Below, one piece after another: positions 204 to 4,959 of a DNA stretch of 20,298 nt. The position numbers and the translations under genes are program-made. Positions within the stretch are counted from its first letter, which is position 1, and the number at the start of each line of letters is the position of its first letter. Under the pieces are notes generated by a model that saw only the letters and a program-made list of their open reading frames with translations, had not been told where the DNA came from and did no database searches. Location: IMG/VR virus record IMGVR_UViG_3300025098_000362, positions 1-20,298 of that record. One strand, 5' to 3'. The stretch comes from a virus.

Positions 204-518
204 TTGGAAAACAAATACGTAAAAGAGGCAAGATACTGGAAATATGCGGCATGGACAATGCCATTCGTCGCGTTAGCAGTTTTGGTAGGCGAAATTATTT
301 TAGGGCATAAACAAGAACAAGCAATCACGTCGATGATTATCATTACGACCTTTGTCACAACCAGTGTATTTTGGTGGTGGTGGTCACTAAATAAAATTGT
401 ATACATGATAAAAAAGTCTGATGAAGTAAGAGACGATTTTATTGAAGTTAAAAAGCAATTACAAGAGATAAAAGAGAATGTGGTCAATAGGCAACGGGCA
501 GAGTCGAGCATCGATTGA
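204..518 (+). CDS. Small two-helix membrane protein with C-terminal coiled coil
   Basis: A 104-residue protein. The chosen start is TTG at 204 because AAGGGAG lies 7-8 bases upstream and no in-frame ATG comes before the first membrane segment. Two hydrophobic helices are evident, about residues 12-34 and 40-63, the second ending in four consecutive tryptophans (57-60) at the likely membrane boundary. Residues 72-98 are charged with heptad-like spacing (V-x-x-D-F-I-x-V-x-x-Q-L), suggesting a short coiled coil. Its size, topology and place just after a fibre gene are compatible with a holin or other lysis/membrane factor, but no lysin lies next to it and I do not recognise the family with certainty. 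Its 3' end overlaps the next gene by 41 bases. Confidence 0.7.
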   Translation: MENKYVKEARYWKYAAWTMPFVALAVLVGEIILGHKQEQAITSMIIITTFVTTSVFWWWWSLNKIVYMIKKSDEVRDDFIEVKKQLQEIKENVVNRQRAESSID

Positions 519-1074
519 TATAAATCAATTAGGCGGCCCCAAGGTAGGATGTAATGCAATTTGGCGAGATTATTCTACTGATCATCTAATATGCTGCGAC
601 AAGCGTATGATGAACGAAACCCTCAAAGGTAACGTAAATACACATTCAATAATATACACAAGAGAAGATTGGTACGACAGGTTTGCACAACCTGGTGTTC
701 ATAAGTTGCCGCCATTACCTTATAAAGGCAGTGAACGAGCAGACGAACCCTTTCATTGGGGAAGCGGACCTTATGCTGTTCTTGTTGCTTCTATGTTTGC
801 AAAAGAAGGATATGTAAATTTAATTGGTTTTGATTTGTATAGTGATGATAAACTAGTTAACAACATATACAAAGACACGCCTAACTACTCAGTCTCATCC
901 AAACGAGCAGTTGATCCACGCTATTGGGTACACCAAACAGCAAAGATATTCAAGTGCTTTCCTAAATTAAAATTTACTATATATCAACTAGACAACTGGG
1001 AGTTGCCAAAAGCCTGGAATTATCCTAATGTTTCGGTTGACACAATAAGTAACATACGTTATAATAGTTTATAA
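478..1074 (+). CDS. GT42/CST sialyltransferase-like protein (DUF115-type fold)
   Basis: A 198-residue protein with features recalling bacterial sialyltransferases of the CST-I/CST-II group (GT42). These enzymes move sialic or related acids from CMP-sugars to surface glycans. Seen here: G-N-G-x-S-R at residues 5-10 followed by I-D and later C-N-A-I-W (25-29), like the nucleotide-binding start G-N-G-P-S-L...I-D...C-N of CST-II; S-G-x-Y-A-V at 96-101 leading into V-N-L-I-G-F-D-L-Y (113-121), like S-G-V-Y-M-C...I-Y-L-S-G-I-D-F-Y; and R-Y-W-V-H (148-152), whose His falls where the CST-II catalytic His lies. It is shorter than CST-II (about 260-290 aa). Substrate unknown; a nonulosonic or other acidic sugar is possible. 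The start at 478 overlaps the preceding gene, with a purine-rich stretch (AAGAGATAAAAGAG) before it. Alternative: a non-catalytic MptE/DUF115 relative. Confidence 0.6.
   Translation: MWSIGNGQSRASIDINQLGGPKVGCNAIWRDYSTDHLICCDKRMMNETLKGNVNTHSIIYTREDWYDRFAQPGVHKLPPLPYKGSERADEPFHWGSGPYAVLVASMFAKEGYVNLIGFDLYSDDKLVNNIYKDTPNYSVSSKRAVDPRYWVHQTAKIFKCFPKLKFTIYQLDNWELPKAWNYPNVSVDTISNIRYNSL
1037..1065 (+). promoter_or_regulatory. Perfect-consensus sigma70 promoter for queD and the glycosyltransferase
   Basis: TTGACA at 1037-1042 and TATAAT at 1060-1065 are separated by exactly 17 bases, matching both consensus hexamers of the bacterial housekeeping sigma factor with no mismatch. It lies inside the last codons of the sialyltransferase-like gene. 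Transcription would begin near 1072, giving a leader of about 70 bases before the ATG at 1145. Such a promoter fits early expression by host polymerase. Confidence 0.75.
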
Positions 1075-1075
1075 C
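1058..1075. repeat. Inverted repeat overlapping the -10 box (possible operator)
   Basis: GTTATAA at 1058-1064 and TTATAAC at 1069-1075 form a perfect 7-bp inverted repeat with a 4-base centre (TAGT). It covers the -10 box of the queD promoter and the expected start of transcription. It could be a repressor site, or chance in an AT-rich stretch. Confidence 0.4.
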
Positions 1076-1144
1076 ATATAGGTCTTAGCGTCAACCCTTC
1101 TAACTCTGCCGCTCATATTAACTTATAACCTAACAGGAGATACT

Positions 1145-1594
1145 ATGGGAAAACATTTAAGCACAAAACATTACGGACACAATATTGGACTGTCAGCAGT
1201 CTTTAGACAACCTAATGCAGATCATTCACACTGTCATTTATTACATGGCTACAGTTTAGCGTTTACATTTACATTCGGATGTGATGAGCTAGATAATAAA
1301 AACTGGGCAGTCGACTTCGGCGGACTAAAGCCGTTAAAGGCTTGGCTTGAAGATTCATTTGATCACAAGGTAGCAGTTGATGCAAACGATCCGCATATGG
1401 ATACACTAAAAGATCTTGAAGCAAAAGGTTTAGCAGAGCTACGTATCTTTGATGGTGTTGGTGCAGAGAAATTTGCTGAACACGCATTTAACTTTGCAGA
1501 CAAACTTATACGTGAAGCAACAGACAATCGTTGTTATTGCGTAAGAGCAGAATGTGCAGAACACGGAGCAAACTCGGCAATCTACGAGGTGTAA
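1145..1594 (+). CDS. queD: QueD-like 6-pyruvoyl/6-carboxy-tetrahydropterin synthase family protein
   Basis: A 149-residue protein of the PTPS/QueD family. QueD turns dihydroneopterin triphosphate into 6-carboxytetrahydropterin, an early step toward 7-deazaguanines (queuosine in tRNA; in some phages also modified DNA bases). Seen here: C30 within H-S-H-C-H-L-L-H-G-Y (27-36, holding the catalytic Cys position), V-D-F-G-G-L-K (56-62), F-D-H-K (72-75, catalytic His position) and E-H-G-A-N-S-A-I-Y (139-147). Two of the three usual zinc histidines appear replaced: the F-x-A-A-H position is F20 and the second His of L-H-G-H is Y36, with extra histidines at 27, 29 and 31. From memory, the sequence best fits an S-T-K-x-Y-G-H subfamily found in alphaproteobacteria and phages, whose product is less certain. 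AGGAG at 1135-1139 supports the start. No other 7-deazaguanine gene is in the window. Confidence 0.85.
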   Translation: MGKHLSTKHYGHNIGLSAVFRQPNADHSHCHLLHGYSLAFTFTFGCDELDNKNWAVDFGGLKPLKAWLEDSFDHKVAVDANDPHMDTLKDLEAKGLAELRIFDGVGAEKFAEHAFNFADKLIREATDNRCYCVRAECAEHGANSAIYEV

Positions 1595-2308
1595 ATGCAA
1601 GACCGTTGGTTCGTATGTCTAAAACACGGAACTAAGTATGATGCAGAGTATGTGAATATTCTGCATTCTATGTTTAAACGACATGCGCCTAGTGATGTTC
1701 GGTTTGCTTGTTATACTGATGATAGCAATGGGCTCGATAATGATATAGAAGCATTTGACCTACCGTCAGTTGGCAACGTAAAAGGATGGTGGTACAAGCC
1801 TCTGTTCTTTAGTCCACACTTGCCTACACAAGGTACAATACTATATTCTGATTTAGACGTTATAATTTTTAAAGATATTAGTAAGTTCTTTGATGTTCAC
1901 CCAGACAAGTTTTGTATACTGCGAGACTTTACAAGAAAGATGCGTCCGGACTGGAAAAAGTTTAACAGCAGTATATTTAGACTTGAAGTAGGAAGTCAAT
2001 CTTATATCTACGAAAATTTTATAGAAAATCCTAAGATGCACATTAAGAAGTATCACGGAGACCAAGACTACATTTACGATCAAGTTGTACAAGCAAACCA
2101 TCCTTTTCAATACTATCCTGACAAGTGGGCCGAGAGCTATAAGTGGGAAATGCGCAATATGGCACACATAACTAGAATGAACGGAGTACGAAACTTTGTT
2201 GAAAAAGGACAACCTCATATACACAAAGACACAAGCATTGCAGTATTTCATGGACAGCCAAATCCAAAAGATTGTATCGATGATTGGGTTATAGAAAATT
2301 GGCGTTGA
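1595..2308 (+). CDS. GT-A type glycosyltransferase
   Basis: A 237-residue protein with the look of a small GT-A (GT8-like) glycosyltransferase, which uses a nucleotide sugar and a divalent metal. Seen here: a beta-strand start W-F-V-C-L-K (5-10), W-W-Y-K-P-L-F-F (65-72), the D-x-D metal motif in Y-S-D-L-D-V (84-89), N-S-S-I-F-R-L (124-130), H-G-D-Q-D-Y (154-159) and a late F-H-G-Q-P-N-P-K-D (218-226), where the His would be another metal ligand as in GT8. The ATG begins immediately after the queD stop with no gap, and GAGGT at 1586-1590 inside queD is the likely ribosome binding site, so the two genes probably share a transcript. Likely cytoplasmic. The acceptor is unknown: host surface sugar, virion protein and modified DNA base are all possible. 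Confidence 0.75.
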   Translation: MQDRWFVCLKHGTKYDAEYVNILHSMFKRHAPSDVRFACYTDDSNGLDNDIEAFDLPSVGNVKGWWYKPLFFSPHLPTQGTILYSDLDVIIFKDISKFFDVHPDKFCILRDFTRKMRPDWKKFNSSIFRLEVGSQSYIYENFIENPKMHIKKYHGDQDYIYDQVVQANHPFQYYPDKWAESYKWEMRNMAHITRMNGVRNFVEKGQPHIHKDTSIAVFHGQPNPKDCIDDWVIENWR

Positions 2309-2363: not shown

Positions 2364-3506
2364 ATGATGAACGATTTAAAATTTACTACCTGCGGCGATT
2401 ATCTTGCAGACCTAGAACCTACACAGCGAATAGGTTTTGCATGTAAGTACATGTACCCCGATCAAACACAAAAGAAGAAAGTACTAGAAGAAATACAACG
2501 CCCGCTAAATACTCGTAGCACAACAGTACAGTGGCTTAACAGACAGACACGTGATGTTGCTGAAGAACGCTTATGGGACATCATGGTCCATAACATTGCG
2601 TCATACAAAAGGTTGATTGAATATGTGGGATCTCTTCCAGCTGAACTTAGGATGGTTCGACTCGGTTCTGATGTACTTCCTGTTTATACCCAGCGGGATT
2701 GGAGTTATTTTTGGCGTAAGCCTGACGTGGTGGAATATGCGGAAAGAACGTTTGCAGAAGTCGGTGCCACGGCAAGAGCCCTCGATGTTAGACTCTCGAT
2801 GCACCCAGGCCAATTTACAGTCCTTGCTTCAGATAGTGAAGAAATAGTTGAGAGGAGCATAGAAGAATTTGAATATCACACCGATGTCATCCGCTATATG
2901 GGATACGGCAAAACCTTCCAAGACTTTAAATGCAATGTACACATATCAGGTCGTAGAGGTCCACAAGGGATCAAAGACGCCCTTAAGAGACTCACGCCCG
3001 AAGCGAGAAACGTCATCACAATCGAAAACGACGAAAACAAGTGGGGACTCGACAGCAGCCTTGAACTTGCAGACGACCTCGCACTTGTGCTTGACATACA
3101 CCATCACTGGTGCCGTGAAGGTGAATACATACAGCCCACCGACGATAGATTTGCTCGCGTAATAGACAGCTGGCGTGGTGTTCGACCTGCAATACATTAT
3201 TCATACAGCCGCAACGAACATTTGCCCGCAGGCTATGAACACAACACTATGCCTAATATGGCACAACTATTAGAAGACGGTTACAAGAAAGCAAAACTTA
3301 GAGCGCACAGTGATTACTATCCTAACCAGCTAGTTAACGATTGGGCATTGAGCTTTTTGCCATATACAGATATCATGTGTGAATCTAAATGCAAAAATCT
3401 TGCAAGCATTGACCTGTATAAATACAAAGAGGAGTTAAAACATTATGAGTTATTTGAACAAAATGTACGGGCGTCAGTCCAAGAACACAGCGCCAGCATC
3501 GGATAA
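2364..3506 (+). CDS. uvsE: UV-damage endonuclease UvsE/UVDE
   Basis: A 380-residue member of the UVDE family, TIM-barrel metalloenzymes that nick DNA 5' of UV photoproducts and start repair without a photolyase. Seen motifs in order: R-I-G-F-A-C-K-Y (22-29), L-R-M-V-R-L-G-S-D (95-103), M-H-P-G-Q-F (146-151), N-V-H-I-S-G-R (191-197), I-E-N-D-E (220-224), L-D-I-H-H-H-W-C (243-250), I-H-Y-S (277-280), H-S-D-Y-Y (315-319) and C-E-S-K-C-K (339-344). These give the expected His/Asp/Glu metal ligands (H147, H193, E221, D244, H278, E340). The usual K-x-H, holding the modified Lys of Thermus UVDE, is A-I-H here. It is longer than the typical roughly 300 residues. The ribosome binding site is weak (TTAGG at 2351-2355), and an ATG at 2367 is also possible. 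The 3' end overlaps the next gene by 62 bases. Confidence 0.93.
   Translation: MMNDLKFTTCGDYLADLEPTQRIGFACKYMYPDQTQKKKVLEEIQRPLNTRSTTVQWLNRQTRDVAEERLWDIMVHNIASYKRLIEYVGSLPAELRMVRLGSDVLPVYTQRDWSYFWRKPDVVEYAERTFAEVGATARALDVRLSMHPGQFTVLASDSEEIVERSIEEFEYHTDVIRYMGYGKTFQDFKCNVHISGRRGPQGIKDALKRLTPEARNVITIENDENKWGLDSSLELADDLALVLDIHHHWCREGEYIQPTDDRFARVIDSWRGVRPAIHYSYSRNEHLPAGYEHNTMPNMAQLLEDGYKKAKLRAHSDYYPNQLVNDWALSFLPYTDIMCESKCKNLASIDLYKYKEELKHYELFEQNVRASVQEHSASIG
3417..3424 (+). promoter_or_regulatory. T4-type late promoter TATAAATA
   Basis: An exact match to the T4 late promoter octamer, lying inside the last part of uvsE and ending 20 bases before the ATG at 3445. It would let the downstream gene be expressed late, separately from uvsE, which has a host-type promoter. 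Confidence 0.65.
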
Positions 3507-4581: not shown

Positions 4582-4959
4582 ATGAATTTAGTAACACTTA
4601 CTCCAGCAGCAGATCAGCAAGTTAGCATTTTATGCAACGAAAATGATTGTTTTGCTATTAGTTTAGATGTAAAAGGAGGAGGTTGTGCAGGATTCGAGTA
4701 TGAATGGGGTACAGCAACACAAGAAGATTTGAAAGCAGATGACTTTTTAGTTGAATGTGATCAAGGAAACTTTATTGTAACCGGACATAGTTTAATGTTT
4801 CTAGCAGGATCAGAAATAGATTATGTAAAATCTATAATAGGATCAACATTTGAGATTAAAAATCCTAACGCCCAAAGTAGTTGTGGTTGCGGTGTTAGTA
4901 TAAACTTTGATATAGACAACCTGGCGCAAGAGCCAGATCGTATAATGGAGCTAAAATAA
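4582..4959 (+). CDS. A-type iron-sulfur carrier (IscA/HesB/ErpA family)
   Basis: A 125-residue protein of the A-type carrier family, which binds and passes on Fe-S clusters or iron. All three signature cysteines are present: C35 in K-G-G-G-C-A-G-F-E-Y (31-40), and C101 and C103 in S-S-C-G-C-G-V (99-105), with the usual roughly 65-residue gap. Length is slightly above the normal 105-115, mainly from the tail after residue 106. AGGA at 4572-4575 is the likely ribosome binding site. The stop is followed after one base by the ATG of the 3068-residue fibre-type protein, so the two are likely co-transcribed from the late promoter at 4553. A-type carriers are known in marine T4-like phages; why one is expressed with virion genes is not established. 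IscA, ErpA or SufA cannot be told apart here. Confidence 0.9.
   Translation: MNLVTLTPAADQQVSILCNENDCFAISLDVKGGGCAGFEYEWGTATQEDLKADDFLVECDQGNFIVTGHSLMFLAGSEIDYVKSIIGSTFEIKNPNAQSSCGCGVSINFDIDNLAQEPDRIMELK

Follow-up and report, generated by a model that had tools for sequence, protein, structure and literature searches.

The DNA analysed here, referred to as the window, is a virus contig of 20,298 nucleotides (the whole 20.3-kb IMG/VR record IMGVR_UViG_3300025098_000362), near the start of which lie three open reading frames (ORFs) encoding a DUF115/GT42-like putative glycosyltransferase, a QueD-family enzyme and a GT8-like glycosyltransferase (genes 1, 2 and 3, or collectively the trio). The original prediction had described these three ORFs as a possible modification cassette beside the end of a fibre gene, and the ORFs as well as the fibre end are indeed present. 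The features of this region are as follows.

1-123, + strand: C-terminal end of a fibre-like structural protein (from sequence; the near-identical contig L002 has this frame open for up to 392 codons)
204-518, + strand: membrane-type ORF of 104 amino acids, downstream of the fibre end and overlapping gene 1 by 41 bases
478-1074, + strand: gene 1, DUF115/GT42-like putative glycosyltransferase, 198 amino acids (AlphaFold2 model, Foldseek, profiles, invariant residues)
1135-1140, + strand: AGGAGA, resembling a ribosome-binding site, 5' of QueD (from sequence)
1145-1594, + strand: gene 2, QueD (6-carboxytetrahydropterin synthase family), 149 amino acids (PF01242, phrog_2389)
1595-2308, + strand: gene 3, GT8-like GT-A glycosyltransferase, 237 amino acids (phrog_1962, fold, motifs)
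2305-2333, + strand: perfect sigma-70 consensus, TTGACA-17 bp-TATAAT, at the junction of gene 3 and UvdE, overlapping the stop codon of gene 3 (from sequence)
2364-3506, + strand: UvdE/UvsE-type UV endonuclease (PF03851, 4e-37), a syntenic neighbour
4582-4959, + strand: A-type iron-sulphur carrier, IscA/ErpA-like (TIGR00049, 1.7e-24, over the cut-off), a syntenic neighbour

Each gene of the trio has hundreds of homologues among viral contigs, and because of these, together with residues that are invariant over 57, 29 and 33 aligned members for genes 1, 2 and 3, respectively, the ORFs are more than chance open frames. The trio is not rare. Loci were collected from IMG/VR by anchoring on each of the three genes in turn, to limit ascertainment bias; each scan retained the best 80 loci at most, so the frequencies given here describe the nearest relatives. 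Distinct loci are those with distinct QueD nucleotide sequences, among which closely related phages may be counted repeatedly, and related loci are not independent observations. The order GT42-like, QueD, GT8 and the strand are identical in all 142 distinct loci that carry the three genes, and the whole trio occurs in 57 of 64 QueD-anchored, 65 of 65 GT42-anchored and 51 of 57 GT8-anchored loci; the neighbourhood search that had been proposed as a check therefore finds the genes together almost always. Neither glycosyltransferase is present in the seven QueD-anchored exceptions, and three GT8-anchored loci (L321, L322 and L328) have the GT42-like and GT8 genes without an intervening QueD, one of these contigs carrying QueD 38 kb away. 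Compared with the window, the QueD-anchored loci have a median identity of 87% in QueD and of 48% and 44% in the two glycosyltransferases. The slot between them accommodates QueDs of different clades: those of L344 and L109 split from the rest at a support of 100/100, and those of L283 and of L289/L299 are placed, with moderate support, nearer to BUCT-ZZ01 or else outside the group of the window. Downstream of the trio, UvdE is found in 112 of the 120 loci with enough flanking sequence and IscA in 38 of 42, about as faithfully as QueD itself. Searching for a cellular origin of gene 1 returned only four contigs of metagenome-assembled genomes (MAGs) with the phage-type gene, at least two of them with the whole trio, and these are probably phage contigs.

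QueD passes the curated cut-off of the Pfam PTPS family (PF01242; E=1.1e-12, 48.4 bits against a cut-off of 22.4) and matches the QueD-like phrog_2389 with E=3.5e-39; the equivalog cut-off of TIGR03367 is not attained. It has FRQ...SHCxxxHGY at the zinc/cysteine position and, by alignment, retains Cys30, His34, Asp73-His74 and Glu139. The zinc site is that of a phage subtype in which AAH is changed to AVF or CCF and HGH to HGY, and which carries other conserved histidines (HSH). This subtype is common to BcepGomr, Iggy, Moby, BUCT-ZZ01 and ACP17, and in BcepGomr and Iggy it is encoded within complete QueE-QueC-QueD-FolE-DpdA clusters. The QueD of phage 9g, which is known to complement delta-queD (PMC6884629), has the canonical HGH motif, in contrast to HGY in the window protein.

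The connection to 7-deazaguanine that the original prediction drew from QueD is real, and in relatives it extends to a second cluster with FolE, QueE and a DpdA-like gene. In G001 and G002, the longest two of the trio contigs that were read first, FolE, QueE and a xanthine-guanine-type phosphoribosyltransferase (PRTase) lie far from QueD, in a cluster with the order pol, DpdA-like, h132, h128, GT-B, PRTase, FolE, HIT, QueE, RNaseH, which has no QueD of its own. The same QueD-less cluster is partially present in G003, G007, G008 and G019, which end inside it, and is complete at 127-143 kb of a 335-kb contig from a Neomarinimicrobiota MAG, 60 kb apart from the trio at about 71 kb; FolE and QueE are thus seen together with the trio in G001, G002 and this contig. 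The idea of the small conserved protein h128 as a QueD paralogue found no support (hhalign probability 1.7%). Among contigs that include the polymerase, a DpdA-like gene lies beside it in 6 of 6 with the trio in a first set and in 13 of 14 in a second set, in which trio presence was checked for part of the contigs only; the fourteenth ends 0.9 kb past the polymerase, and the 19 related contigs that continue further all have the gene. In the sister contigs G012 and G032, a QueD with 95% identity directly precedes QueE in the same cluster, and the GT42-like and GT8 genes were not found in the 60-110 kb of sequence of these contigs.

The DpdA-like gene could be located only via synteny with PA5oct and ACP17. 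A search of the related contigs with the TGT family PF01702 returned nothing, this gene included, and its profile found no match in the PDB. The assignment is made on account of three TGT motifs that occur in order (DSGGFQ, HFLG, FDCASP), a profile alignment with the TGT-like phrog_10773 group (E=4e-4) and synteny. Members of this DSGGFQ family, such as those at L142:6041-7279 (- strand) and in PA5oct (L160:6986-8608), are missed by Pfam, NCBIfam and PHROG and are annotated as hypothetical in PA5oct-like phages. Comparison with the modules of PA5oct (Pseudomonas), ACP17 (Acidovorax), X1 (Xanthomonas), Phosso (Sinorhizobium) and BUCT-ZZ01 (Synechococcus) revealed the DpdA-like protein, two conserved small proteins and GT-B, which is homologous among the marine contigs and these phages and whose PDB profile matches are all glycosyltransferases (best E=0.005). 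As in the marine contigs, FolE and/or QueE lie near the GT-B in these modules, each of the five genomes encodes a DpdA-like protein, either of the marine type or of the phrog_10773 type, and the PRTase recurs in PA5oct and BUCT-ZZ01; unlike in the window, a pair of GT42-like and GT8 genes was not noticed in the regions read. A protein of phrog_17812 (115-129 amino acids; L133:17698-18084, - strand, and ACP17 L163:7833-8213) adjoins the GT-B and DpdA-like genes, with 53-54% identity between the marine and ACP17 forms; a profile comparison gave it no significant link to QueD.

QueC (PF06508) was not found in 12 of 14 contigs, and G007 and G011 gave short partial matches only. Since there is no convincing QueC, the product is predicted to be at the level of 7-carboxy-7-deazaguanine. 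Because the second cluster lacks QueD, and because a QueD of 95% identity adjoins QueE in the sister phages, the step that this cluster does not encode is most likely provided by the QueD of the window, as part of a 7-deazaguanine DNA-modification pathway split between two loci. Compared with the known phage system (FolE-QueD-QueE-QueC-DpdA, as in 9g, BcepGomr and Iggy; Hutinet et al. 2019, PMC6884629), these phages likewise have FolE, QueD, QueE and a TGT/DpdA-like protein, but they lack a convincing QueC, their DpdA-like protein is divergent, the genes are divided between two loci with QueD between glycosyltransferases, and a PRTase and a GT-B are added.

Gene 3 matches the PHROG glycosyltransferase phrog_1962 (E=3.5e-26), and its AlphaFold2 model, with a mean predicted local distance difference test score (pLDDT) of 94.6, finds glycogenin and LgtC of family GT8 in a Foldseek search of the PDB (E=2.5e-8). 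Residues invariant over the 33 members are D86-L87-D88, N124SS, GDQD at 155-158 (D156-Q157-D158) and HG at 219-220; with the Foldseek match, this amounts to a GT-A fold with DxD and a C-terminal histidine, as in GT8. It is termed GT8-like and not filed as a member because its score against Pfam Glyco_transf_8, 18.1 bits, falls under the curated cut-off of 24.3. The fold and the DxD, DQD and His-Gly motifs are shared with the GT8 family (glycogenin, LgtC) and its phage homologues PmgQ of P1 and HdmD of P7, to which gene 3 has about 24-25% identity over 95% of the length; these homologues are themselves only of putative function, and HdmD lies within an operon annotated as head morphogenesis.

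Gene 1 has no match in Pfam or NCBIfam, and in PHROG it matches only a group of unknown function. Its AlphaFold2 model (pLDDT 94.9, predicted template modelling score 0.92) matches a DUF115 protein (E=3e-5, probability 1.00) and also MptE-like proteins among the viral models of BFVD, whereas the PDB offers nothing significant, with loose Rossmann-like matches only. The expectation that the predicted structure would resemble GT42/DUF115 is therefore upheld on the side of DUF115 viral structures and not on that of experimental ones. A 57-member family alignment has GNGxSR (5-10), N26, D41, G95/G97, GFD (117-119) and NN (128-129) as invariant. A PDB profile search with the first alignment gave no match; with the wider family profile the top match is the GT42 sialyltransferase 9c08, not significant alone (E=0.4), which aligns colinearly at GNGxS, the following N and SG...GxDxY, and the three GT42/CST motifs that had been read in this protein are thus recovered. 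Fold and motif order are those of the DUF115/MptE-like superfamily (PF01973), and on the strength of the model we are confident that the fold is DUF115/GT42-like. Histidine is absent from the invariant and nearly invariant columns of the 57 members, His152 alternating with Tyr, and because a conserved catalytic histidine is lacking, gene 1 is not filed under GT42 and is not a canonical member of it. Thus, it shares with CstI/CstII and the DUF115/MptE-like/Maf superfamily the Rossmann-like order, GNGxS, N, D, SG helix and GxDxY, but differs from CstI/CstII in the missing Pfam match, the missing invariant catalytic-base histidine and a length of only 198 amino acids. A Pfam scan of 41 family members found PF01973 in one (0.0048) and PF06002 (CST-I) in one (0.033); with no CST-I match for the window protein and no invariant histidine in its family, 'sialyltransferase', the resemblance originally proposed, is too specific. 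In some relatives IscA is followed downstream by another GT42-like gene, a longer paralogue (L012:6125-6859, L015:10115-10858).

Genes inserted in the trio of some relatives offer clues to the glycosyltransferases. KdsA, the synthase of 3-deoxy-D-manno-octulosonic acid (KDO) 8-phosphate, is encoded between QueD and GT8 in 15 of 142 loci (the one tested scores above the curated cut-off; an example is L093:10603-11463), and KdsB, the synthetase of cytidine monophosphate (CMP)-KDO, is the best match, below equivalog cut-offs, in 3 of 142 (L049:11179-11874 being one). Other loci have 2-oxoglutarate oxygenases or cupin-like genes in this position. On account of KdsA and KdsB, the flanking enzymes are suggested to build an ulosonate-containing glycan. 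Three GT42-like genes are found in the complete genome of pelagiphage HTVC008M, which has no match to QueD, FolE, QueE, the DpdA-like protein or GT-B. The idea that the trio is a self-contained cassette does not hold: the partners of QueD are elsewhere, UvdE and IscA accompany it as faithfully, and GT42-like genes occur in HTVC008M without a deazaguanine gene.

Based on these comparisons, we hypothesize, with a probability of roughly 0.5, that the locus combines two kinds of modification function, QueD serving the split deazaguanine pathway and the flanking glycosyltransferases a virion or host-envelope glycan. The activities, donors, acceptors and role that we infer are as follows. QueD would produce 6-carboxytetrahydropterin, the second step of the phage pathway, the remainder of which would be encoded beside the DNA polymerase, tens of kb away (FolE, QueE, the TGT/DpdA-like base exchanger, the phosphoribosyltransferase, GT-B and two small proteins, with no QueC). 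FolE, QueD and QueE would convert guanosine triphosphate to 7-carboxy-7-deazaguanine, and its DpdA-type exchange into phage DNA would allow escape from restriction. The probable donors are, for the DUF115/GT42-like enzyme, an ulosonic acid activated with CMP, for example CMP-KDO, and, for the GT8-like enzyme, a uridine diphosphate-hexose; the two enzymes would build a glycan most likely located on virion proteins or the host envelope. This location is favoured because the glycosyltransferases lie among fibre genes, sometimes with KdsA/KdsB, and likewise because HTVC008M has GT42-like genes without the pathway and HdmD belongs to a head-morphogenesis operon; we give a glycan on the virion or envelope an even chance.

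Several observations weigh against this hypothesis. In several unrelated phages a GT-B is built into the DpdA cluster itself, and the retention of the QueD slot despite clade change suggests a tie to the glycosyltransferases and not two separate functions. KdsA and KdsB are limited to a minority of loci, and the window subtype has other residues in place of two of the histidines that bind zinc in E. coli QueD. Finally, only contigs of 20-55 kb, all ending before the polymerase, are available for the window's own phage, for which we infer the second cluster from relatives; an extension to the polymerase region via a gp44 fragment led only to other phages, related to it with no more than 97% identity.

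The strongest alternative is a single system in which the glycosyltransferases of the window act after GT-B to form a sugar chain on 7-deazaguanine in DNA, possibly a ulosonate-capped hypermodification. Two features speak for DNA as the glycan target, the QueD slot and the presence of GT-B in the DpdA module: QueD stands between both glycosyltransferases in every one of the 142 loci, strongly supported branches force at least two changes of the QueD in this slot, and QueD-bearing lineages without the slot also lack the glycosyltransferase pair in the sequence examined. Moreover, PA5oct, ACP17, X1, Phosso and the marine contigs encode GT-B a short distance from FolE/QueE/DpdA-like genes, and glycosyltransferases adjoin the cluster of BUCT-ZZ01. 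However, the equal synteny of UvdE and IscA makes that of QueD unspecific, L321, L322 and L328 dispense with QueD between the pair, a pelagiphage that lacks the pathway has GT42-like genes, the trio sits among fibre and not replication genes, and 7-carboxy-7-deazaguanine has no hydroxyl acceptor. We regard this single system, and with it a glycan on DNA, as tentative. Deazaguanine glycosylation is not far-fetched, given the GT-B within DpdA clusters of several unrelated phages, and a specific form of it, in which GT-B would add the first sugar to a QueC-less, carboxy-level base and the GT8-like and GT42-like enzymes would lengthen or cap it, possibly using an ulosonic acid of the KDO type, appears doubtful. 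A search of the open-access full-text literature found no description of glycosylated 7-deazaguanine in phage DNA. The glucosylated hydroxymethylcytosine of T4, made with alpha- and beta-glucosyltransferases, similarly pairs a phage base-modification pathway with glycosyltransferases, but the base and the enzyme families differ, and here sugars on DNA are only a candidate reading.

It is improbable that QueD is instead an auxiliary metabolic gene for host tRNA queuosine, folate or pterin metabolism. Reports of QueD, FolE and QueE as auxiliary genes of marine viruses are frequent (PMC9301287), and most contigs have no QueC or canonical TGT; on the other hand, the region beside the DNA polymerase holds FolE, QueE and a divergent TGT/DpdA-like gene, and close relatives of this QueD are found in DpdA clusters. 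Least probable of all is that gene 1 is an MptE-like diphosphokinase acting on a QueD-linked pterin, for although MptE (6-hydroxymethylpterin diphosphokinase) belongs to the DUF115 family, the BFVD matches are named MptE-like, the best plausible PDB match by Foldseek is lp_1622 (probability 0.93, E=0.04), which we take to be thiamin pyrophosphokinase-like, and the pterin enzyme QueD is adjacent, the PDB profile search ranks a GT42 sialyltransferase first with colinear motifs, the partner gene 3 is GT8-like, KdsA/KdsB co-occur, and we know of no phage pathway that requires a pterin diphosphate.

The hypothesis of two modification functions would tie an abundant, uncultured and mostly marine phage group to guanine DNA modification. 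The comparison also brings to light a divergent family of DpdA-like proteins, overlooked in standard domain searches, and finds glycosyltransferases repeatedly within or beside the deazaguanine modules of unrelated phages. Cultured relatives of the module exist, for example the PA5oct-like Pseudomonas phages, and make the question directly testable.

Among the neighbouring features, the 104-amino-acid membrane-type ORF upstream of gene 1 is confined to close relatives. The stop codon of QueD abuts the start of gene 3 (TAA ATG), and the sigma-70 consensus at the end of gene 3 may provide UvdE with a promoter of its own. The IscA/ErpA-like carrier might serve to mature QueE, a radical-SAM iron-sulphur enzyme encoded elsewhere in these phages. 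In some relatives an endonuclease III-like gene with a helix-hairpin-helix motif is inserted between the GT42-like gene and QueD (L015:6260-6721, L427:6669-7127), and in G001 (C1:141772-142678) UvdE appears as two matches, possibly through a frameshift or an assembly error.

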